Assembly (NCBI GenBank): GCA_037481875.1
Contig: JBBFKY010000015.1
Span: 1-46,326, forward strand
Source: Desulfosoma sp.
GTDB lineage: Bacteria; Desulfobacterota; Syntrophobacteria; Syntrophobacterales; DSM-9756
Length of the DNA: 46,326 nucleotides
Direction of reading: 5' to 3'
Every line of letters begins with the position of its first letter. The stretch's first letter is position 1. The position numbers were made by a program, and so were the translations under genes. A model generated the notes under the pieces. It did not search any database, had not been told where the DNA came from, and worked only from the letters and a program-made list of their open reading frames with translations. Below are positions 423 to 42,081 of the stretch, piece by piece.

Positions 423-541
423 GAAGGCACCTAGCGGGTGAAATGGTGACAGGAGAGGCTAAAGCACAAAAGCAAATGAAATTCAGTACGATACATCCGG
501 CAAGATACTTTTCTTTATAGACACAATCTCACGGATTAAGG
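1..541 (-). mobile_element. IS1380-family element, terminal part, decayed
   Basis: Read on the minus strand, the tip at 541 starts CCTTAATCCGTGAG. The same tip occurs at 7405 on the plus strand, and a close variant (CCTGAATCCGTGAG) lies at 45742. About 180 bp from the tip inwards is alignable with 7405-7580 in inverted orientation. Deeper in, the strand encodes pieces of an IS1380 transposase. The element runs off the left window edge. Its tip lies directly against the end of the truncated hsdS gene, so the insertion interrupted hsdS. Family assignment rests on the transposase motifs and is confident; a named IS cannot be given. Confidence 0.85.
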
Positions 542-880
542 GTTTTGATAGTAGCAGGCCCCTATCTGCCGATTCCATATCGCTGTTCGCCCGATGTCTC
601 CTCCTTCACAAACCAATAGGTCACCGGCTTTCAACCCAAGCTTTCGCTCTTCAGCCTCTTCAAAGTGCATGTAGTCCAGAGTGGAGAGGTCCACTCGCCC
701 CCACAAGACGTTAGCGGTTCGCAGAAACGGACGCATTGGAGAGCCGGAGCGCGACTTCGGCGAGAGAGACTTTCCCTGCTGTATTTCAAAAACCTCCCCC
801 AACCGCACCACCCGCCACTCTTCGGGCAGGGGGCCGAGTTCGGTCAGGCGGAAACCGGCGGGCAAATCCTCGAGTTTCAT
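536..880 (-). pseudogene. hsdS: Type I restriction-modification specificity subunit HsdS, truncated by IS
   Basis: HsdS chooses the DNA target of a type I methylase or restriction complex. The 114-residue product has the classic start of the first target-recognition domain (GPLPEEWRVVRLGEV, then LRTANVLWGRVDLS and GDLLVCEGGDIGR) and breaks off after ACYYQN, where full proteins continue for roughly 300 more residues. The last codon and the stop (Pro-TAA) come from the IS1380 tip at 541. Starting at 880 is chosen because that ATG overlaps the PIN-gene stop (877-879) in an ATGA junction, implying translational coupling. An upstream in-frame ATG at 916 is possible but buried in the PIN gene. The fragment lacks the second recognition domain, so it is probably non-functional unless the remainder beyond the IS is used. 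Confidence 0.88.
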
Positions 881-1374
881 GGTTGCTTCTCCCATGCCTT
901 CAGGCGCCTCTGACATTCGTTTGCCGGCAGTCGGCTGCCTTGCGCCAGCATCTCCCGCAGCGCGTGGGCGGCAGCTGCGGTGGTGAGCAATCCTGCGGCT
1001 ACCAGCTCATCCAGCAGCCACAAGGTGCCGCGCACGGTAACCCCGTTCTGCTCCGCCGCCTCTCGCAAACGGCGGTTGCTGGTCAGCAGGATCGCCCGCT
1101 CGCGTTGTGCCAGCACCAGATGCGCCCGGTCGTATACAGTGAGGGCGGAGTAACGGCTACCGATGGCGATGATCTGCGAAATGTCCTCCCCAGATAACGC
1201 CATGACTTGCAATCCCAAACCGTGCAATGTGTCCGGCGTAGGATCGTTCAGTTCCGCCATCGCCAGGTCGGAAATCATCCAGTCGGCCTCCAAATGGAAC
1301 AGTGACTGCAATATGGCACCACGTGCACAGTCAATCAACACGCTGGCATCAATAACGCAGCGGAATCTCCTCAT
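877..1374 (-). CDS. PIN-domain protein (putative toxin, VapC-like nuclease)
   Basis: This 165-residue protein has the PIN fold pattern of a small metal-dependent RNase: Asp9 in CVIDASVLID, Glu41 in AMAELND and Asp83 in TVYDRAH. A LLTSNRRLREAA block follows, in which the usual fourth acidic residue is Asn101. It overlaps the upstream XRE-ImmA gene by 26 bp and the downstream hsdS fragment by 4 bp, so the three are one translational unit. XRE/ImmA genes followed by a PIN gene are a known toxin-antitoxin-like arrangement, which makes the neighbour the likely controller. Whether it is an active toxin is not shown, and the Asn substitution is a reason for caution. Confidence 0.8.
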   Translation of the reverse strand: MRRFRCVIDASVLIDCARGAILQSLFHLEADWMISDLAMAELNDPTPDTLHGLGLQVMALSGEDISQIIAIGSRYSALTVYDRAHLVLAQRERAILLTSNRRLREAAEQNGVTVRGTLWLLDELVAAGLLTTAAAAHALREMLAQGSRLPANECQRRLKAWEKQP

Positions 1375-2413
1375 GCGGGCGTTGTACCTCGATCATGAAT
1401 TGCGTCAGGGGCTTGCCCAGGAGTTCCGCTGCGCGTTCGGGTCCGATCACATCGTCGCGCAGGGCTCGCAAGACCAGCCGCTCAAGCCGCGTGCTAGATT
1501 CGCACGGGTAGGGGGCGCCCGGCTCGGTGATGTGCCATCCCTGGCTGCGAAAAGTCCGATAAAGCTTCTGTGCCGTCTGCGGGGAGATGATCGCCAAATC
1601 CTGAGCGCGGTGCACCCAGCCCTGCATGCTTAGCCCGTACTTTTGCTTGAGCAGATGAAGCTCCACGAGATCCAAGGAATGGCGTCGCCAGCCTAACTCG
1701 TTGAACACCGTCGGCTTGGCAACCAGGAAGGCAGCGGCGAAACGATTGGCCGCCTGCTCAACTCGTGCTTCGCTCCACGTCTCCGGCAGATCCAACACCA
1801 GATGCGCCAGTTCATGCGCCATGCTGAAACGCTGGCGATCCCCAGGCGCGTCCTGCTTAACGACGATCACCGGCGTCACCCCGTTGGCCACTAGCGAAAG
1901 TGCGTCAAAGTGGTCGTTCCCCGGCACAAAGCCCACTTTGATTCCAACGGCTTCCAGCGTTTCGGTCAGGTTGGGGATGGCATCTAACCCCAGTTGCCAG
2001 GCCTCGCGCAGGGCAATAGCAACGTCCTCTACCTGGTCCAAATGCGCTACCTGGCGGGAAAAGGTGGGCATAACAAACGATCGTTCTTCGCCGAGCAGGC
2101 ACTCGATGGTCGTGTAGCGTTCCAGCCAATCCTGCACCTGGGCCTGAACATGAATCTCTGCCCGCCGCGTCATACTGCTCCGGTGGCGACGATAGACCGG
2201 TTCGGTCAACGTCACCGTCTGCGGCCGCAGCAGATATTCTATGCTGACCCCCAGCGCATCGCTCAGGCGCAGCAAAACGCCCGAGCCGGGCATATCTTCG
2301 TTGCGCTCATATTTCGAGATGGCTTGTGCGCTCACGCCAACCCGTTCTGCCAGAGCACGCAAGCTCAAACCTGCGCCTTGGCGACTGCTCTTGAGCCGTT
2401 CACCGAGTTGCAT
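1349..2413 (-). CDS. XRE-family regulator with ImmA/IrrE metallopeptidase domain
   Basis: The 354-residue protein starts with a helix-turn-helix of the XRE/Cro type (about residues 5-60, with VGVSAQAISKYERNEDMP). It continues into an ImmA/IrrE (DUF955) zinc peptidase domain with HELAH at 200-204 and a candidate third ligand Glu near 220 in VEQAANRFAAAFL. Proteins of this design act as repressors or as proteases that relieve repression. The start ATG follows a GGGAGCAGGGG ribosome site. About 40 bp upstream a strong promoter sits inside a 40-bp inverted repeat, so autoregulation is likely. It is probably the antitoxin or controller of the PIN protein encoded next. Confidence 0.88.
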   Translation of the reverse strand: MQLGERLKSSRQGAGLSLRALAERVGVSAQAISKYERNEDMPGSGVLLRLSDALGVSIEYLLRPQTVTLTEPVYRRHRSSMTRRAEIHVQAQVQDWLERYTTIECLLGEERSFVMPTFSRQVAHLDQVEDVAIALREAWQLGLDAIPNLTETLEAVGIKVGFVPGNDHFDALSLVANGVTPVIVVKQDAPGDRQRFSMAHELAHLVLDLPETWSEARVEQAANRFAAAFLVAKPTVFNELGWRRHSLDLVELHLLKQKYGLSMQGWVHRAQDLAIISPQTAQKLYRTFRSQGWHITEPGAPYPCESSTRLERLVLRALRDDVIGPERAAELLGKPLTQFMIEVQRPHEEIPLRY

Positions 2414-2452
2414 GGCCCCTGCTCCCCTGAAATGTTCTCACGATTCACCTTG

Positions 2453-2492
2453 CGGTTTACATTGTAATAGATAATCTATCATTTGTAAACCG
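2453..2492 (-). promoter_or_regulatory. Promoter and nested operator of the XRE-ImmA/PIN operon
   Basis: On the minus strand TTTACA (2489-2484), a 17-base spacer and TACAAT (2466-2461) form a near-consensus sigma-70 promoter. It coincides with two almost concentric inverted repeats: outer arms of 9 bp (2453-2461 and 2484-2492) and an inner 13-bp palindrome ATAGATAATCTAT (2467-2479). A dimeric XRE repressor bound there would cover both promoter hexamers. Confidence 0.8.
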
Positions 2493-2559
2493 AAAGGAAC
2501 TCGGAGTGTGGCCCGCGATTAGCGAGAGAACCGGAACCGCGTTGAGAGGTCAACCTGTG

Positions 2560-2615
2560 CACCTCCAGCAGGGGGGCTGAGTTCAGTCATCTGGAAGCTG
2601 GGGGGAGGGCCTCCT
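2560..2615 (-). pseudogene. Relic of an hsdS 5' end (middle copy)
   Basis: The minus strand here reads PPSFQMTELSPP in one frame. This matches the start of HsdS (GFRLTELGPLP at the true gene, GFPMTELGPLP at the relic near 4087). The DNA core at about 2567-2588 differs at a few positions from the cores at 825-846 and 4066-4087. There is no start codon and no continuation into a recognition domain. It lies between the Fic gene and the promoter of the XRE gene. Confidence 0.65.
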
Positions 2616-2830
2616 CACGCGGCGCGGCGGCGCGCCCGGTCCCGTTGGCAGGTGCGTTCATCGCTTCCGTCCTCCGTTCTCGGTCGCACCGGTATCCCGG
2701 GCAAGGCGTGCCGGGCGGCGACTTTGGGTACTCGATTCGGTCATTCGGTTTCTCTCCGGCGATTTGTACTAAGTTTCAATTCTCTCTGGGCAAATTATAC
2801 TTTTTCGCCCAAAAGTTTAATTTTGAACAA

Positions 2831-4015
2831 CTACGCCGGCCCTTCATCGTGGATCACGTCCAGGATTTCTTGCGCTGCATAGGTCTTGCCGTAAGAGCCT
2901 TCACTGATCAACTGCAAGATGCCTGCCTGAACAAGTCGTTCCACGTTCTTTTGGGCACTGGGGTAGGTAACGTTCAACATACGCTGCGCTTGTGGTATAG
3001 TGAGTATCGGTGTCGTGTAAAGACTATCCGCCAGACGCAAAGCCAGGGCCGACGTCCGCGCCTGGGTCAGGCGCGCGCGCCAGCTTTGCTGCAGGTCTTG
3101 CAGCTTTTTGGCACGGATCGTTGCATCCAGGGCCTGTTCGGCCACACCGCGCAGGAAGAAGAGCAGCCATTCGCGCCAGGCCCCGCGCTCGCTTACCTCC
3201 AGCAACAAATCGTAATAAGCCTGGCGGTGACGATGAAAATACGCGCTCAGGTAGAGCAGGGGCAGCGGCAGCAGATCCCACTGCACGAGCAACAGCGACA
3301 GAAGCAGGCGCCCAATGCGACCGTTCCCGTCTACGAAGGGATGGATGGCCTCAAACTGGTAGTGCACCAGCCCCAGGCGGATCAGCGGCGGATAGTCGTC
3401 CTCGCGGTGCAGGTATTTCTCCAGCGCGTCCAGCGCCGCGTGCATCTCCGCCGGGGGTGGGGGCACAAAGGTCGCCTCGTTCAACGTGCAGCCGGGCGGA
3501 CCGATCCAGTTCTGCGTGCGCCGGAACTCGCCCGGCGTGGTATGTCCGCCGCGCACACCGGCCATCAGCCGCTCGTGCAGCTCACGGATCAGGCGCAGGC
3601 TGACCGGCAAGGTCGTCAGGCGCTTCAGACCGTACTCCAGCGCGTTCACGTAATTCAGCACCTCGCGTACATCCGATTCGGGCACGGACGACTCCATGCC
3701 GGGCAACGGCAGTTGTCTCGCCTCGTAGGCATACAAGTCGGTAATATCCGCCCGCGTCCCCTCGATGCGCGAGGAAAGCACCGCTTCACGGCGCACAAAG
3801 GGGCCGATGAGCAGATGGGGATTGGACATGGTGCGCCCTAAGCCGGCCAGCTCGCTCAGGGCCCGGTCCGCCGCGGAAAGTACGGCGGTTAATTCCCAAT
3901 CTGCCGGCAGGCGCGGCGGCAAGGGGTTGGGCACGAAAGCCCAGTAAGCCGTGTCCCCCTGTCCAACCCGGATGACTTTTCCGGATGTGCTATTTTCAAA
4001 TCGCTTCGGATCCAT
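2831..4015 (-). CDS. Fic-family protein (putative AMP-transferase, class II)
   Basis: Fic proteins usually transfer AMP from ATP to hydroxyl groups of target proteins. The 394-residue product has the complete catalytic motif HPFVDGNGRIGR at 225-236. It also has an N-terminal inhibitory helix motif SSRIEG at 81-86 (the S/T-x-x-x-E-G/N pattern whose Glu blocks ATP binding). The C-terminal 100 residues look like a winged helix (ILTIPQAQRMLNVTYPSAQK). The ATG at 4015 follows AAAGGA. It sits between two hsdS relics inside the hsdM-hsdS interval, so it is a passenger of the restriction-modification operon. The target is unknown; a toxin or regulatory role is an inference. Confidence 0.9.
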   Translation of the reverse strand: MDPKRFENSTSGKVIRVGQGDTAYWAFVPNPLPPRLPADWELTAVLSAADRALSELAGLGRTMSNPHLLIGPFVRREAVLSSRIEGTRADITDLYAYEARQLPLPGMESSVPESDVREVLNYVNALEYGLKRLTTLPVSLRLIRELHERLMAGVRGGHTTPGEFRRTQNWIGPPGCTLNEATFVPPPPAEMHAALDALEKYLHREDDYPPLIRLGLVHYQFEAIHPFVDGNGRIGRLLLSLLLVQWDLLPLPLLYLSAYFHRHRQAYYDLLLEVSERGAWREWLLFFLRGVAEQALDATIRAKKLQDLQQSWRARLTQARTSALALRLADSLYTTPILTIPQAQRMLNVTYPSAQKNVERLVQAGILQLISEGSYGKTYAAQEILDVIHDEGPA

Positions 4016-4055
4016 GAATTTGTCCTTTGGGTTGCCTTCTCAACCTCTGCGCGTC

Positions 4056-4124
4056 TCATGTTTCCGGCAGGGGGCCGAGTTCGGTCATCGGGAAGCCGGG
4101 GGGAAGAACGGTATACTCGCTCAT
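4056..4124 (-). pseudogene. hsdS 5'-end relic coupled to hsdM
   Basis: A 22-codon reading frame starts at 4124 with an ATG overlapping the hsdM stop (ATGA), exactly where hsdS starts in ordinary hsdMS operons. It ends in TGA just after the HsdS-like sequence GFPMTELGPLPE. A 22-bp stretch (4066-4087) is identical to 825-846 in the truncated hsdS and lies in the same reading frame. I read it as what remains of the original hsdS start after other genes entered the locus. Confidence 0.8.
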
Positions 4125-5656
4125 AGCGCCAGCCCCATTTCTTTCAGCACGTCGCGCAGGGCGCGGTCCGCCGCCGTCCGTTCCTCCTCAGCCTCGCGCA
4201 GCAGTACCATAGCTTCCTCCAATGGCAGAGTTTCCTCCTGCCCGTTTACGCTGACGTAGCGACTAGGAGAAAGGTTATAGTCATTGCGGGCGGCATCCTC
4301 GCGGGTGATAATCGCGGCAAACCCTTCCTCGGCCCGCCAGCCGTGATATACGTTCGCGATGGCGGCGATGTCGGCGTCGGTCAGGTAGTTCTTGGGCCGG
4401 CCTTTGCCATAGCGCCGGCTGGCGTTGATGAGCAGAATCTCGCCGGGGTGGCGCTTTTTGCGGTGGATGACAATGATCACTCCCGGCGCGGTGGTGTTGT
4501 AGAAAAGATTTTCGGGCAGCAGAAGCACCGCCTCGATCAGATCTCCCTCCACGAAGGCCTTGCGGATATCGCGCTCGCGGTTAGAGCCCTGGTTGCCGCT
4601 ACCGCGGCTGACCGCGCCGGTATCCAGCACGACCGCCATGCGCCCGGTCTCATTGAGCGAGGCCAGCATGTGCTGCAGCCAAGCCCAGTCGGCGCTGGAG
4701 GCAGGCGGGATGCCGAGGCCGAAACGGTCGTAGGGGTCGTTTTCGTAGAGATCGGTCGGGAAGTTCTGATTCCACATCGGGTTGGCCACCACGACGTTGA
4801 AGGTTTTCAGGCGGCCAGCGTCGTCCTTGAAGGCTGGGTGGCGCATGGTGTCGCCGATGCGGATGTCAGCCTCCAGGTCGTGGATGACGGCGTTCATACG
4901 CGCCATCGCAAAAGTTGCCGAGTTGATTTCCTGCCCGAAAAGACGCAGCGGCTGAAGGGAGGTCGGCAGCCGCCGCCGGTTGTTCTCCTGGACGCCGTGC
5001 GTTTCCAGCAGGCGCAGGTGGCATTTGATGAGCAGACCGCCGGAGCCGCAGCAGGGGTCGTAGATGCGCTCACCCGGCCGCGGCTCAATGAGCCGTGCCA
5101 TGAGCACCGCTACTTCGCGCGGGGTGTAGAACTCCCCGGCGCTCTGGCCGCTATCTTCGGCGAACTTGCGCAGCAGGTACTCGTAGGCGCGCCCGAGCAC
5201 GTCCGGCTCCACGTCGTCGAGACCCAGCCGGTGGCGGGAGAGTACCTCAATGAGCTGCGCCAGGTAGTCGTCCGGGACAATGCGCTGTCCGGCTGTGGTG
5301 GCGTTAAAGTCCACTATGTCAATCACGCCCTGCAGGCGAGGGTTCTCGCGGGCCACAGCGCGGACTGCGTCGGTCAGGTACTGGCCCAGGCCGGCTGGGG
5401 CGTGGGTGCGGATCGCCTCCCAACGTGCGTTTGCCGGTAGGTAGAATCGCACGAGTCGGTGATCTTGCTCCACCAAGCGCGGGGCCTCCTTGCCCAGTTC
5501 GGTCTTCAGATGCGCCACTTCATCGTCAAAAACATCGGACAGCCGCTTGAGGAAGCCCAGCGGGAGAATATAGTCCTTGAATTTGGCGGAGTCTACAGGC
5601 CCGCGGATGGCGCAGGCGGCGTCCCAGAGCCAGGTTTCCAGTGTCGTTACATCCAT
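4121..5656 (-). CDS. hsdM: Type I restriction-modification methyltransferase HsdM
   Basis: HsdM transfers methyl groups from S-adenosylmethionine to adenine in type I systems, guided by HsdS. The 511-residue protein has the N-terminal helical domain, the AdoMet-binding motif DPCCGSGG (about residue 199), the catalytic motif as NPMW (about residue 291; this variant of NPPY/F occurs in many HsdM proteins), and the late block RNDYNLSPSRYV. Start 5656 is chosen for the GAGGATGG ribosome site just upstream; an in-frame ATG at 5701 lacks one. The stop overlaps an hsdS relic by 4 bp. No hsdR lies in the window, and hsdS is broken, so methylation by this locus is doubtful. Confidence 0.93.
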   Translation of the reverse strand: MDVTTLETWLWDAACAIRGPVDSAKFKDYILPLGFLKRLSDVFDDEVAHLKTELGKEAPRLVEQDHRLVRFYLPANARWEAIRTHAPAGLGQYLTDAVRAVARENPRLQGVIDIVDFNATTAGQRIVPDDYLAQLIEVLSRHRLGLDDVEPDVLGRAYEYLLRKFAEDSGQSAGEFYTPREVAVLMARLIEPRPGERIYDPCCGSGGLLIKCHLRLLETHGVQENNRRRLPTSLQPLRLFGQEINSATFAMARMNAVIHDLEADIRIGDTMRHPAFKDDAGRLKTFNVVVANPMWNQNFPTDLYENDPYDRFGLGIPPASSADWAWLQHMLASLNETGRMAVVLDTGAVSRGSGNQGSNRERDIRKAFVEGDLIEAVLLLPENLFYNTTAPGVIIVIHRKKRHPGEILLINASRRYGKGRPKNYLTDADIAAIANVYHGWRAEEGFAAIITREDAARNDYNLSPSRYVSVNGQEETLPLEEAMVLLREAEEERTAADRALRDVLKEMGLAL

Positions 5657-5831
5657 AATCCATCCTCGCTTTGAAAGGTTTTCTTCGATCAGGTCATCCA
5701 CGTCCTGCTTGCCCGAGCCGGTGGCAGGTCCGGGTGCGGGGCGGAGGTCTTTTGCCGGCTGTTATTGGGTGTTTTGTGGCAGGTTAGGCGTCCGATCGGC
5801 TGTTCTCGTGAATCCCGGCGTCCGAAACGAC

Positions 5832-5863: not shown

Positions 5864-6434
5864 CGGGTCCTGGGGCGGAATCACTTTCGCCGCGCGGGAC
5901 CACACACCAACTGGCCTGCGCCTGGAGCTGTGTTGGTTTTAGTTTCTAAATCGAGAAAGCGACGTGTCCAAGTTTTCAAAGTTTCGTCTTTGATGTATTT
6001 TCGAAGCAGGTGGGAGGCGCCTCTCGCTCCCCCAAACTACTAACCCGAGACTATCTCTTTCCTTGGGGGCACGGGCCACTGATCCGCTCATTTTGGGAGC
6101 GGAGTTTCCACGCTTCCGGATGAACCGGCGACTTGAGGCATAGATCGTGCCGCGCCGTAGCCCTACAGGCCCATATTATAAAACTCGCTTTGGGAACTGC
6201 CACAAACCAGGTGGTTCTCGAAGGGGCGTTGATTTTCTCGGGTCGCCGCCTCAGAAAAAAAAGTTCTCGCTCTCAAACCTTGTCAATTCTTGGTGCGACG
6301 GCCCACAACCGCCGCCATCTTTATCTGAACTCTATCGTTCATCACCCCAGGTTCCTAAGGATCACGTGGTTTGCTATCCCACAGGAGTATGGTAATTTGA
6401 CAAGGTAGCAGGAAACTTGGGTAAGGAGTGCGCC
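5864..6434. other. Intergenic stretch without a supported gene
   Basis: Short reading frames occur on both strands, but none has a ribosome site or a recognisable family. Upstream of the nuclease gene at 6435 the sequence is more AT-rich than the island genes. I see no convincing promoter or repeat. Confidence 0.5.
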
Positions 6435-7397
6435 ATGGGGGGCTACGATGCGGCCGTGAAGGTTGTTTTGTCCCACTGCCGGCAGGCCGCGCTGGAATAT
6501 TTTCTTGGACTGGATGTGGCGGAATCTGAGCTCTTGGAACTTCCTCAGGAAACGGCTACGGTCAGGCGGAGCGATTTCCCCATTCGGGTGCACACGTCCG
6601 ACGGGCGTGTCTTTATTGTTCTCCTGGAAGTTCAAAGCCGGTGGGAACCCCAAGTCCCCTTGAAGCTTTTGGAATACGATGTTCGCTACCGCTTGAAAAC
6701 GGGTCTTACGGTCTATCCCGCAGTGATGCTTCTCGTTCCCAGCGGAAACGTGGTGGAATCCTTTGAGAACGACTTCATTCACTACCGGTTTCGGGTCATT
6801 TCCCTTGCGGCTATGGACGCTCGAAAGGTGCTGGAATCAGGAAATCCGTGCCTCATGCCTTTTGTTGGGCTCATGCGGGGAGGCTCCGAAGTTTTTCAAA
6901 TGGCCGAAGAGGTCATCTACGAATCACAGCTCAAACGAAGCGACAAGGCGGATCTTTTGACCGGCATGGCACTCCTTTCAGGCTTGGTGGACAAGGATTT
7001 ACCCAGGAAATTGCTGGATCGCAGGAGGGATATTATGACGGAATCCTATGCCTATGAACTGATCAAGAAGGAAGGCTATGAAGAGGGTCTCCGTTCGGGG
7101 ATAGAACGCGGAAGACAAGAGGGATTAGAGCAGGGATTAGAGAAGGGATTAGAGAAGGGATTAGAGCAGGGATTAGAGCGGGGATTAGAGCAGGGAATGC
7201 AGCAGGGAACGTTGGAGGCCACGAGGGAACATATTATAGAAACGCTGGATGCACGGTTTCAGGATATTCCCAAAGACGTCCTGCGTTGTCTTCGAAGGAT
7301 CCAAGAGGTGGATGCTTTGAAAATCCTTTTCAAGAGAGCTCTAAGGGTTCGCTCCCTCGACGAATTCCAGGAATCCCTGAAACGCCTTCTTGATTAG
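6435..7397 (+). CDS. Rpn-family PD-(D/E)XK nuclease (transposase-like, putative phage-defence protein)
   Basis: The 320-residue protein belongs to the Rpn/YhgA-like group (recombination-promoting nuclease, formerly annotated as putative transposase). The nuclease core shows FLGLDVAESELLEL, then the conserved VFIVLLEVQSRWEP strand with the PD-(D/E)XK-type E-x-Q, then LLEYDVRYRL. The C-terminal part carries an in-frame 12-bp repeat encoding GLE[Q/K/R] units and ends in a helical tail (RVRSLDEFQESLKRLLD). Start 6435 is set by TAAGGAG eight bases upstream; a TTG at 6417 has none. The gene stands alone, oriented against hsdM, and ends 8 bp before an IS1380 tip. Rpn proteins are DNA endonucleases with toxic, anti-phage activity, so membership of the island fits. 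Confidence 0.85.
   Translation: MGGYDAAVKVVLSHCRQAALEYFLGLDVAESELLELPQETATVRRSDFPIRVHTSDGRVFIVLLEVQSRWEPQVPLKLLEYDVRYRLKTGLTVYPAVMLLVPSGNVVESFENDFIHYRFRVISLAAMDARKVLESGNPCLMPFVGLMRGGSEVFQMAEEVIYESQLKRSDKADLLTGMALLSGLVDKDLPRKLLDRRRDIMTESYAYELIKKEGYEEGLRSGIERGRQEGLEQGLEKGLEKGLEQGLERGLEQGMQQGTLEATREHIIETLDARFQDIPKDVLRCLRRIQEVDALKILFKRALRVRSLDEFQESLKRLLD
7035..7397 (+). CDS. Putative intragenic antitoxin (RpnS-like) from an internal start
   Basis: Inside the Rpn gene an in-frame ATG at 7035 follows a perfect AGGAGG (7023-7028) with six bases between. Translation would give a 120-residue C-terminal product starting MTESYAYELIKKEG and containing the whole GLEQ/GLEK repeat. In characterised Rpn systems, as I recall the published work, a short in-frame protein of this kind dimerises with and blocks the full-length nuclease. 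The start is seen in the sequence; the function is inferred from the family. Confidence 0.6.
   Translation: MTESYAYELIKKEGYEEGLRSGIERGRQEGLEQGLEKGLEKGLEQGLERGLEQGMQQGTLEATREHIIETLDARFQDIPKDVLRCLRRIQEVDALKILFKRALRVRSLDEFQESLKRLLD
7122..7205 (+). repeat. 12-bp coding tandem repeat in the Rpn gene
   Basis: Six near-identical units of GGATTAGAGCAG (variants with AAG or CGG at the end) fill 7122-7193, and a degenerate seventh follows to 7205. Each unit encodes Gly-Leu-Glu-(Gln/Lys/Arg). Unit gain or loss keeps the frame, so it would change tail length without killing the protein. Confidence 0.95.
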
Positions 7398-7404
7398 CTT
7401 AATT

Positions 7405-7580
7405 CCTTAATCCGTGAGGTTCTGTCTATAAATAAAAGTATCATGCTGAATGTATCGTATTGAATTTCATTCTCTTTTGTGCTCTAGGGTCTCCTGTCAC
7501 AATTTCAGCCGGCAGGTGCTCTCATGAAAAGAATCGAGACTGAACAATCGACGAAGGCGGTCTACATGGCGTTGCTCACG
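7405..7580 (+). mobile_element. IS1380-family element, 5' remnant
   Basis: The tip CCTTAATCCGTGAG begins at 7405. The following sequence matches the reverse complement of 361-541 over about 180 bp. A transposase start is still present at 7523: ATG followed by KRIETEQSTK, which parallels KRTEIEQSSK in the left copy. The reading frame meets a TGA after 19 codons and similarity fades near 7580. Only the left end of an element remains, in opposite orientation to the copy at 1-541. Confidence 0.8.
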
Positions 7581-35883: not shown

Positions 35884-37410
35884 TCAGGTTTTCATGTTCG
35901 AGCCTTCTTCCGTTTTCCACGTGCGGATCAAGGATACCAGAGTGCGCACACCAAATCCGGTGGCTCCTTTGGGAATCCAGCCCAGGTCCTTATCGGCCCA
36001 GACGGTTCCGGCAATGTCCACATGAGCCCAGGGAACTGTGTCCGGCACAAACTGCTTTAAGAACATGGCGCCGATGATGGTTCCCGCTTTTCGATCCCCC
36101 ACGTTTTTGAAATCGGCCACGTCACTTTTTATGTCTTCGAAGTAAAAATCGTAGAGCGGCAAAGGCCAAAAGAGTTCACCCAAGGGTTTTCCTGTTTCCT
36201 GCATGGTGCTCAGCAAGGCTTCATGGTTGCCCAAAAGACCTGCCACTCGGTCCCCCAGGGCGATGACACAGGCTCCAGTAAGTGTCGCCAAATCCACCAG
36301 AGCCGATGGTTGAAACTGTAAGGCGTAGCTTAAGGCGTCGCAAAGAATCATGCGTCCTTCCGCATCGGTGGAAATCACTTCCACGGTGAGTCCCGCATGG
36401 GTCTTGACCACATCACCGGGCTTGTAGGCTTGACCGTCTGGCATGTTTTCCGTGCAGGGCATAAGGGCGATGACACGTCGAGGTATCTTCAAGCGTCCGA
36501 TGGCGTCCATGGTTCCCAGAACAGTGGCGGCTCCGGCCATATCGTGTTTCATGTCTTCCATCTTGGCCGCCGGTTTGATGGAGATCCCTCCCGTGTCAAA
36601 GGTAATGCCTTTGCCTACCAGCACGAAAGGCTCTTGGTTTTGAAGCCCATCGGGACAATGTTCCAAAATGATAAAGCGAGCCGGTTCTCGAGATCCCTGC
36701 GCTACCGCGACGAACCCTCCCATGCCCAATTCTTTGGCCTTGTCCAAATCCAGGACCTCAAAACGCATGCCATGGCTGGAAGCAACACGGGCGGCTTCTT
36801 GGGCCATACGTGAAGGGGTGACCACATTGGAAGGGGCTGTGGCCAGATTCCGTGCCAGCACAATGCCTTCTGCGACGGCTGCCACCTCATGGATCAGTTC
36901 AAATACATAGGGTAGGGGACTTTCGGAACAAAGGCACAGTTCCTTGGGACCTTCGAATTTTTCCACATCACGCGTTTTCAGTTCATCGTAGCGGTACAAA
37001 CCCAAAACGGCGGCCATGAATGCTTCTCGAACAAGGATTTCCTCGCTTTCCGGCAATCCCTCTAAGGCCGCCGTAGAAAGAAGAACACGTTCCAGTGAAA
37101 GATCCCGGCAACGACGCACGGCCATGGCCGTGGCATGACGAAAAGTCTCCAGGGACCAGTCTTTTCTTTTTCCCAAACCCACCAGAAGAAGCCGGGCGAT
37201 AGGGGCTACGGTCGGCGAGTACACGAGAAGAAGTTCGGCTTTTTTGGCCCGAAAATCTCTATGGGCAGGGCTGTCCTTGAACCAGGGGGCTTGTAGGGAC
37301 ATCCAACGGGCTAATCCTGAAAGAGGGGCCTCTTCATCCTGGAACGCATAAAAGATGATGACATCACCGCTCCATTGTGAAAAAGTCCCTTCCGTGTATT
37401 TCAATTCCAT
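35884..37410 (-). CDS. pepA: Leucyl aminopeptidase (M17, PepA)
   Basis: PepA removes N-terminal residues from peptides with two metal ions, completing breakdown of peptides brought in by importers such as the nearby Dpp system. The 508-residue protein has the M17 catalytic blocks VGKGITFDTGGISIKP, MKHDMAGAATVLG, ISTDAEGRMILCDAL (usually NTDAEGR; Ser replaces Asn) and DLATLTGACVIALG. The ATG at 37410 follows AGGAGG by eight bases; a longer frame runs into the DUF2207 gene and is rejected. Confidence 0.96.
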   Translation of the reverse strand: MELKYTEGTFSQWSGDVIIFYAFQDEEAPLSGLARWMSLQAPWFKDSPAHRDFRAKKAELLLVYSPTVAPIARLLLVGLGKRKDWSLETFRHATAMAVRRCRDLSLERVLLSTAALEGLPESEEILVREAFMAAVLGLYRYDELKTRDVEKFEGPKELCLCSESPLPYVFELIHEVAAVAEGIVLARNLATAPSNVVTPSRMAQEAARVASSHGMRFEVLDLDKAKELGMGGFVAVAQGSREPARFIILEHCPDGLQNQEPFVLVGKGITFDTGGISIKPAAKMEDMKHDMAGAATVLGTMDAIGRLKIPRRVIALMPCTENMPDGQAYKPGDVVKTHAGLTVEVISTDAEGRMILCDALSYALQFQPSALVDLATLTGACVIALGDRVAGLLGNHEALLSTMQETGKPLGELFWPLPLYDFYFEDIKSDVADFKNVGDRKAGTIIGAMFLKQFVPDTVPWAHVDIAGTVWADKDLGWIPKGATGFGVRTLVSLIRTWKTEEGSNMKT

Positions 37411-37519
37411 GCTGTTTGCCTCCTCGATTGGTTTCTTTGCGTTTTCCGCTGTCTCATTCGAAAACGTGATGCCAACCACATTTGACTCACCGCGTCGCCA
37501 CCGGGATTGGGACGAGGAT

Positions 37520-39475
37520 TCACCAACCGCTTCCGCCCCCACCTCCGCCACCCCCTCCCGAAGATCCTCCGCCTCCGGATCCGGACCTGGATCCCGGTGG
37601 TGTTGAAGCGGAAGCAATGGCACTTGTCAAGCCGGACCCGAGACTCTCACCTAATGCTGCCAATCGGCCGCTTCCAAAGGACGTGAAATCTGTCCCTTTG
37701 TACCATCGAGGCTGATAGGCATGGGTATCTTCTCTTTGAGTCTTGAAAAGATCGGCGAATTGTTCACACCATTCATGTTCCACATCCAGGGCTAAAGCGT
37801 AAGGCAAATACTTTTCAAAATGTTCGGGTGTTTTTTCAGGAGGATGCAGGATGCCCAGGCGATCTTTTTCGGCTATGGTCAAATAAAGGCGAAAACCTTC
37901 AATTTGGTCCAGAATCTTTCGACCTAGATGTGTCGGCGCTTTCAGAAGCTGATAGAAAAGCCCGTGAACGCCGCCCAAGGCCCCTAAAAGAACAGCCCCC
38001 ATGAAGGAGACACTGTAAGCGAAAATACCTAAAGCTACAATTTCCGCCACCCAAAAAGGCACGGCAAACAGGGTGATTCCAAGGGCTGAAAATTTGCCAA
38101 CTATACGGTGTGGCAGCCTGCCCCGTCGAGACCTTCTCCAAGTTTCAAAAACTTGCATGGCCAACGCCGCGCATCCCACGGACCAGATGCTTAACCAAAA
38201 GGCAAGGAAAGCCGCCACCACCGGCTGCGGAGCATAAACGATGAGCAGCACGACTACAGGGACGGTAAATATCAGGGCCGGAATCATGTACTTGGAATTT
38301 GTAAGAAAGTAGGTTTTTTCATATTCGCGGGAAAGAGTGTTGTGAAGTTGGTTTAAGGCTTCTTTAAATTTAGAGGCGTGCATGTTTTTGAGGCGAATTT
38401 CTCCACTGTTTCCCATCCCGAAAAGGGTTTCGGCGATCTTTTTTTCTCCGGCGGAGAGCCCGGCGGTCGTCGTGTTCTTTCGAACAAGCACATAAGCATC
38501 GTCCTCTTCACGAATCTGTAAGTGCCCTTTGACAGCCATGTTGACGACGGCAGCGGCAAAGGCCTTTGAGTCAAAATCCATCCTTCGCACAAAGCGCACG
38601 GCCGCCGGACTGAATCCTTTAGGGGGTTCAAAGAGAGGAATGATCGTTCCGGGCTTAGGATCCCGACCCACTCGAAACCAGACGGCAAGGTAATAGCTCA
38701 TGACAAGAACAAACCCGATCCATCCAAAGAAGGCGCCACGGTTATCGCCTAAAAGAGCCATAGCCCGATCGGTGACGGTGGGTTCTTGAACAAAACCCTT
38801 AGGCCATGCCACAGCCACCGTCAGGCCTTCCCCCACATCCAGAGGGCGAGTGGTTTCAAAAAACACGGTCCCTCGACCCTCATTGATGAATCGAAAGTCT
38901 GTACCCTGTGCGCCTTGTGGGCCTGTGTATGCGGCGCTTTGCATCGGAGTGGCGCCGGAGGGCAGTTGAATTCGAGCCGCCGCATGATCAATGGGAAACG
39001 TCCAACCGGTGCCTGTCACGTTCCAGTACAGCTCATCGAAATCTTTAAAATGACCCAGCTCGCGTGAGGTTCGATAGGTGATCTCGTAGCGATGAATCCC
39101 CGAAGGGATAAAAACATCTTTTGAACCGATGTAAATCTTGACACCGTTACTCACCAACTGCGTGTGATAGGGTTCCGTTTGACCGTTGCGTCGAATTTCC
39201 ACGATGTCAAAGGATACCTTAACACGATGCCCGAGTCGGTCCTTGTAGGTGGTGGGAAAATCACGAACGATGCCCCTTTTAATGGATTCGCCGAGAGCTC
39301 TGACCGTGATGGTTTCTTTGACGGTAAGGGTGGCGTCTGTATGGATAATGATGTCGCTGAAAAAATCCAGGATTCTTTCCTGGGAAGTGCTTTGAGCCGA
39401 CAGATCGCGGCTGTGCAAGGGAAACCAGGTAAAAAGCGTGATCAAAGCAAGAAACACTACACGCGACTGTCTCAT
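37520..39475 (-). CDS. DUF2207 membrane protein
   Basis: A 651-residue protein with a signal peptide (RVVFLALITLFTWFPLHS). An extracytoplasmic DUF2207 domain follows (IIIHTDATLTVKETITV, RGIVRDFPTTYKD, YWNVTGTGWTFPID). Next come a helix near 250 (GWIGFVLVMSYYLAVWF), a cytoplasmic region, several helices around 400-520, and a tail rich in Gly and Ser ending GGGSGW. The start at 39475 has AAGGA eight bases upstream; ATGs further up (39544) have none. It follows lemA, and LemA and DUF2207 genes are commonly paired. Function of both is unknown; an envelope role is the usual guess. Confidence 0.85.
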   Translation of the reverse strand: MRQSRVVFLALITLFTWFPLHSRDLSAQSTSQERILDFFSDIIIHTDATLTVKETITVRALGESIKRGIVRDFPTTYKDRLGHRVKVSFDIVEIRRNGQTEPYHTQLVSNGVKIYIGSKDVFIPSGIHRYEITYRTSRELGHFKDFDELYWNVTGTGWTFPIDHAAARIQLPSGATPMQSAAYTGPQGAQGTDFRFINEGRGTVFFETTRPLDVGEGLTVAVAWPKGFVQEPTVTDRAMALLGDNRGAFFGWIGFVLVMSYYLAVWFRVGRDPKPGTIIPLFEPPKGFSPAAVRFVRRMDFDSKAFAAAVVNMAVKGHLQIREEDDAYVLVRKNTTTAGLSAGEKKIAETLFGMGNSGEIRLKNMHASKFKEALNQLHNTLSREYEKTYFLTNSKYMIPALIFTVPVVVLLIVYAPQPVVAAFLAFWLSIWSVGCAALAMQVFETWRRSRRGRLPHRIVGKFSALGITLFAVPFWVAEIVALGIFAYSVSFMGAVLLGALGGVHGLFYQLLKAPTHLGRKILDQIEGFRLYLTIAEKDRLGILHPPEKTPEHFEKYLPYALALDVEHEWCEQFADLFKTQREDTHAYQPRWYKGTDFTSFGSGRLAALGESLGSGLTSAIASASTPPGSRSGSGGGGSSGGGGGGGGGSGW

Positions 39476-41436: not shown

Positions 41437-42081
41437 CGAAAACCTCCTGTGACGTAATGACAAGGTCAAGTGAGAACGCACCCAAAGATGGACGAAAGAC
41501 AATGGCCATCATGGTGCGTGGTTTTTGGTCGGGCACACCTGTCAACCCCTACGAGTTCGCGTGTCCTAGGCGGACACGTGGGTCCTGCCCCGACGGATTG
41601 TGAGTCCTTGAATGTATACATTGGTCGTGCCTTCGTTTACCAGTCATCGGGAAACATTTGGGTTTGACCGTAGAGGTTTTGGAGCATGGGCGGAAAGATG
41701 GCCGCCCTCCGGGTTCCAGCGTTATGGTCAGGCCCGAAGGTCCTGCCCCGACGGATTGGGAGTCCTTGGATGTATACATCGGTTGTGCCTTGGTTTACCA
41801 GTCATCGGGAAACATTTGGGTTTGACCTTACGGGTTTTGGAGCTTGGGCGGAAAGATGGCCGCCCTCCGGGTTCCAGCGTTATGCTCAGGCCCGAAGGTC
41901 CTGCCCCGACGGAGTGTTCAGGGGTTTTGCCCGACAGGTTCAATGACGCTGAATCTTATGGTAGAAAGCAAGGCGGCCCCTTAAAGGATACATGGGAAAA
42001 CGGCATTGACAAAAGAAAAGGGCGTCGGTAGCTTCGAGCGGCTGCCGTAACGGATGATATTTTCAAAAGGAGGGGAAAACC
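41437..42081. other. Intergenic region holding a tandem duplication
   Basis: This 645-bp gap between divergent genes is mostly the 158-bp tandem repeat at 41581-41915. Open frames in it are side products of the repeat and have no ribosome site. The serC ribosome site (AAAAGGAGGGG) lies at its right end. Confidence 0.6.
41581..41915. repeat. 158-bp tandem repeat, two full copies and a stub
   Basis: GGTCCTGCCCCGACGGA starts at 41581, 41739 and 41897, giving a period of exactly 158 bp. The two full units differ at roughly a dozen positions. Each contains the palindrome ATGTATACAT and a GGGCGGAAAGATGGCCGCCC hairpin. Confidence 0.93.

Follow-up and report, generated by a model that had tools for sequence, protein, structure and literature searches.

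Nested toxin-antitoxin genes of the Rpn family have been described in Escherichia coli, where the full-length protein, RpnL, is a nuclease that is toxic and has a role against phages. Cleavage is blocked by a small protein, RpnS, which is made from an internal start and attaches to the tail of RpnL, whose sequence is identical to its own (Zhong et al. 2023, PMC10327210). Neutralisation is abolished if one repeat is added to one of the two partners (Zhong et al. 2023, PMC10327210). M244 of RpnA is a proven internal start, production has been shown for each of the five E. coli RpnS proteins, and every one that was tested inhibits its cognate RpnL (PMC10327210). In RpnA, the residues D11, D63, E82 and Q84 are important as judged by mutation (PMC5350276). 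Our search for literature on Rpn toxin-antitoxin systems later than Zhong et al. 2023 returned nothing beyond a restriction-modification review.

Here, we analyse a gene in a stretch of 46,326 nucleotides of Desulfosoma sp. DNA (contig JBBFKY010000015.1; referred to as the window), which very probably encodes a divergent Rpn toxin-antitoxin system composed of an RpnL nuclease toxin and a nested RpnS antitoxin made from a start at position 7035. Since the nested arrangement has already been published for E. coli, the window gene is a new, divergent member of the family that is invisible to Pfam. According to the proposed mechanism, translation from 6435 would yield RpnL, a PD-(D/E)XK DNA endonuclease with a toxic effect or with invading phage DNA as its target, and a second ribosome start at 7035 in the same frame would yield RpnS, i.e., the 120-residue helical tail alone. 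RpnS would pair with the identical tail of RpnL via the repeat-bearing helix and keep the nuclease inactive, and infection or stress would release the nuclease from RpnS. The antitoxin activity of the 120-residue product, as well as RpnS synthesis, binding, inhibition and phage defence for the window gene, we infer by analogy from the work on E. coli. The relevant features of the locus are the following:

5937..6434, + strand: upstream region that was duplicated along with the gene; the other copy in the genome is 90.3% identical
6423..6428, + strand: Shine-Dalgarno (SD) sequence AAGGAG of the full-length gene, 6-nt spacer, -8.7 kcal/mol
6435..7397, + strand: full-length gene (RpnL-like), 320 aa, PD-(D/E)XK nuclease domain followed by a C-terminal helical tail
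6447..6635, + strand: predicted catalytic codons D5 (6447-6449), D47 (6573-6575), E65 (6627-6629) and Q67 (6633-6635)
7023..7028, + strand: internal SD sequence AGGAGG in codons Arg197-Arg198, conserved at the DNA level in 44 homologues
7035..7037, + strand: internal ATG start codon (codon 201), in frame, 6-nt spacer from AGGAGG
7035..7397, + strand: frame of the putative RpnS-like nested antitoxin, 120 aa, one long and three short helices; S-only remnants occur
7120..7208, + strand: 12-bp tandem repeat, 7.4 copies (four-residue GLEx repeats)

The coordinates, the reading frame, the AGGAGG at 7023-7028, its 6-nt spacer, the ATG at 7035 and the 120-residue product given in the original prediction all proved exact. 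The internal ribosome site had also been rated better than that of the full gene, and this is borne out by the predicted anti-SD pairing energies of -10.8 versus -8.7 kcal/mol, though the full-gene site is good as well. The promoter presumably lies inside the duplicated upstream region. Within the 3.4-Mb genome, AGGAGG followed by ATG at a distance of 5-8 nt occurs 335 times compared to 54 times for the reversed control (about six times as often), and therefore, the combination marks real starts in this host. Among 31 window genes checked, only one other in-frame internal AGGAGG-N4-9-ATG was found, at 35884-37623 (- strand); it lies 213 nt into the open reading frame and is plausibly the real start of that gene. 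SD-stimulated frameshifting was considered and rejected: a slippery run is absent just after 7028, and the frame is unbroken in all intact homologues.

The assignment to the Rpn family (COG5464) is a remote one. PF04754 has no match anywhere in the genome, and the only Pfam match to the protein concerns its glycine-rich repeats (Yae1_N). The model TIGR01784 (Rpn family recombination-promoting nuclease/putative transposase) gives 13.4 bits and an E-value of 0.051 with the protein encoded by 6435-7397, as compared to a curated cut-off of 52.1, and it matches 15/15 aligned relatives below the cut-off, the best at 2.4e-6. D5, D47, E65 and Q67 are invariant among the aligned relatives and are the counterparts of RpnA D11, D63, E82 and Q84, the register of the last three being taken from a weak hhalign alignment and D5 being placed by eye from the motif D-A-x-x-K. 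In the AlphaFold (AF2) model, which reaches a pLDDT of about 90 for most of residues 50-180, the N-domain is followed by a long repeat-bearing helix and three short helices. The top VIA structural matches of the N-domain are PD-(D/E)XK nucleases, the best with a Z-score of 7.2 (over 99 residues, rmsd 2.7), which falls within the background range, and thus, a PD-(D/E)XK fold is predicted with moderate confidence. For the tail, hhalign gave a probability of 0.3% against RpnA-S (PDB 7TH0); in fold searches with the S domain, which is helical in the model, the RpnA-S structure was not among the matches listed and no clear match appeared. While formal family cut-offs are not reached, the TIGR01784 matches, the catalytic residues and the modelled N-domain lead us to treat the protein as a remote Rpn. 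Members of the same branch also occur in Chloroflexota MAGs (Anaerolineae, Ardenticatenaceae; L119, L127, L130), which suggests either horizontal transfer or a binning error.

The core of the argument is the conservation of the internal start. Homologues were gathered at the level of family, order and phylum as well as among GTDB genomes, and codon-aligned; 44 of them, representing several families of Desulfobacterota and one Chloroflexota MAG, cover the site. All 44 homologues have retained the SD core together with an ATG, which is codon 201 or, where codon 201 encodes Ile, codon 202. The disappearance of the internal SD and ATG from close homologues, named as counter-evidence in the original prediction, was thus looked for and not seen. 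Arg197 is encoded by AGG in 43/44 sequences, compared to 12% of the other Arg codons of the same genes, and Arg198 by AGR in 37/40, compared to 18%; at other conserved Arg columns, e.g., 16, 45, 69, 84, 118 and 274, AGR accounts for 0-9%. After thinning to less than 50% amino acid identity, AGG persists at Arg197 in 11/11 representatives. Averaged over the gene, the excess of synonymous identity is 0.031 (sd 0.054); its highest value, 0.373, is reached at codons 197-201, and no comparable conservation is present over codons 160-196. Codons 200 and 203, which flank the ATG, are likewise biased (GAA and ATC are kept), as around real starts. Upon synonymous resampling within each gene, the mean anti-SD energy of the homologues, which is -10.8 kcal/mol for the actual sequences, weakens to -5.3 (sd of mean 0.39).

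Moreover, the SD sequence moves between codons. Codon 196 is AGG in all seven genes in which codon 198 is Lys or CGN but in only 2/37 of the others (Fisher P = 9e-7): where codon 198 is unable to supply the SD, codon 196 is AGG, and the SD therefore shifts one codon upstream. In E. coli, the corresponding position ahead of the helical tail holds the SD AAGGAG, contained in Lys-Glu codons, in rpnA, rpnB and rpnE, and GGGGAG in rpnC; other Rpn-like subfamilies of the phylum encode the SD by Glu-Glu-Asp or Gly-Glu-Glu. Compensation between codons 196 and 198, the E. coli rpn genes and these subfamilies thus indicate that the nucleotide signal is kept while the encoding amino acids change. Arg codon usage, synonymous excess, resampling and codon compensation together rule out chance or codon bias as the origin of the SD, and the comparison of homologous genes argues that the internal SD and ATG are under selection separate from the protein sequence. 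As a side observation, three loci (L019, L022 and L055:6393-7388) belong to a different Rpn-like subfamily (YDSAWKEVLE...), which lacks a Pfam match and carries GAGGAGGAC plus ATG before a repeat tail.

These patterns also bear on other readings of the site. A conserved protein motif, Arg-Arg-Asp-Ile-Met, in combination with codon bias might suffice to produce the AGGAGG, in which case the second protein would not be made. The motif RR[DEN]IM is indeed strongly conserved at the protein level, yet CGN predominates at the other Arg codons of these genes, synonymous resampling removes half of the pairing energy, codons 196 and 198 compensate for each other, and the SD is kept with other amino acids in E. 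coli and in other Rpn-like subfamilies, all of which renders such an origin extremely improbable. SD-like sequences and pairs of AGG codons are thought to slow ribosomes, and the site is located between nuclease domain and tail, where a pause at the domain boundary might serve co-translational folding or dimerisation rather than initiation. Pausing, however, does not account for the workable ATG spacing in 44/44 homologues, shifted by one codon when codon 201 is Ile, for the conserved GAA and ATC codons that flank the start as in real starts, or for the retention of SD and ATG in copies that have kept only the S part; we regard it as very unlikely.

Alternatively, translation does start internally but yields a protein that acts not as an antitoxin but as a structural partner, in the manner of Cas11d with Cas10d, or modulates the oligomeric state. 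The long helix predicted for the tail would suit oligomerisation, and partner subunits arising from internal starts do exist (discussed in PMC10327210). On the other hand, every RpnS of E. coli is produced, and each one assayed inhibits its RpnL (PMC10327210), and the common catalytic residues and the variation in repeats suggest the same role as for E. coli Rpn, which leaves a partner function unlikely. The antitoxin reading, and with it the nested toxin/antitoxin organisation proposed in the original prediction, is highly probable in the light of synonymous-site conservation, catalytic residues, four-residue repeats and S-only remnants.

The history of gene copies adds to this picture. A second copy is located at C1:536628-537551 on the minus strand, and a third, decayed copy on C16. 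The alignment of window 5937-7405 with the second copy contains a 647-bp block (6472-7118) without any difference, the 500 bp upstream of the two copies are 90.3% identical, and their S regions differ by three additional 12-bp units in the window copy and a few substitutions. Given the identical block, the divergent upstream DNA and the different repeat numbers, the toxin part up to the repeats looks as if it had been homogenised by gene conversion between the two copies. The repeats in the putative antitoxin are hypervariable: among relatives, and between paralogues, the length of the repeat segment changes in four-residue steps. Within-genome pairs sharing the same type of tail, most of which have nuclease domains 92-99% identical, are equal in length in 0/32 cases; this result is not significant, as random assignment gives 1.1 equal pairs on average and zero in 31% (P 0.31). 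Repeat number might serve as a private code: the paralogues of one genome, despite their nearly identical nuclease domains, would each carry a different number of 12-bp repeats, so that an antitoxin would hold back no toxin but its own and the paralogues would be independent defence units, a possibility that we consider rather doubtful. In a tandem pair of adjacent paralogues in Desulfacinum infernum (L028), the nuclease domains are 44% and the C-terminal tails 97% identical, and thus, tails or antitoxin modules appear to have been exchanged between toxin types.

At 11 loci the nuclease part is lost or broken and the S frame is intact and retains its SD and ATG, compared to one locus (L128) with a nuclease part and without S. 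The excess of S-only loci is suggestive only, because the N part is the larger target and some of the MAGs have a coverage of about 2-3. One S-only locus (in G095) directly adjoins a full-length gene, an arrangement like that of ypaA, which adjoins rpnE in E. coli (PMC10327210). At one locus (L106; G059:C330, 835-1748), a frameshift yields the nuclease and S parts as two overlapping open reading frames with the SD and ATG of the S part intact; the frameshift may be a sequencing error in a low-coverage MAG.

The host, a sulfate-reducing bacterium, belongs to the Desulfobacterota and homologues are present in Desulfacinum and Syntrophobacteraceae, in agreement with the earlier assignment to a probable deltaproteobacterium. 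The contig ends at position 1 and cuts a partial type I restriction-modification locus (536-5701) with interspersed PIN, HTH-M78 and Fic genes:

536-916, - strand: HsdS fragment
877-1374, - strand: PIN/DUF3368
1349-2413, - strand: HTH-M78/RmrA-like
2831-4015, - strand: Fic
4121-5701, - strand: HsdM

From 7894 onwards, the right side contains ordinary genes (redoxin, ArgJ, SecA, metabolism). Since defence genes lie to the left and ordinary genes to the right, the gene is placed at the margin of a small cluster of defence genes, and the "defence island" of the original prediction stands for the left flank only. The window also harbours a 158-bp tandem repeat at 41581-41913 (2.1 copies, 94% match).

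Taken together, sequence evolution provides evidence that nested antitoxin starts are selected in a branch of the Rpn family that domain libraries miss. An SD sequence that is conserved at silent sites and moves between codons offers a signature for genes within genes that does not require ribosome profiling. Furthermore, paralogues that are almost identical and whose main difference is the repeat number would form a natural test bed for antitoxin specificity.

Compared to known systems, the locus resembles Cas10d/Cas11d of type I-D CRISPR (cited in PMC10327210) in that a defence gene gives rise to a smaller C-terminal product from an internal start, yet in the CRISPR system the small product is needed as a subunit and does not inhibit, and a sequence relation is not claimed. 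The closest counterparts are E. coli K-12 rpnA-E (PMC10327210), from which the window gene differs in several respects: its protein is too distant for PF04754, the SD is provided by Arg-Arg instead of Lys-Glu, and the S product comprises 120 instead of 49 residues. Unlike the E. coli rpn genes, which have internal transcription starts, a conserved internal promoter signal was not seen here, and no sigma-70-like promoter site was found on the + strand inside the gene, though host promoters may differ. Shared with rpnA-E are a PD-(D/E)XK N-domain with D, D and E-x-Q residues, an internal SD and start ahead of a helical tail, four-residue repeats that begin soon after the internal Met, and an occurrence in multiple copies, tandem arrays and separate S genes.
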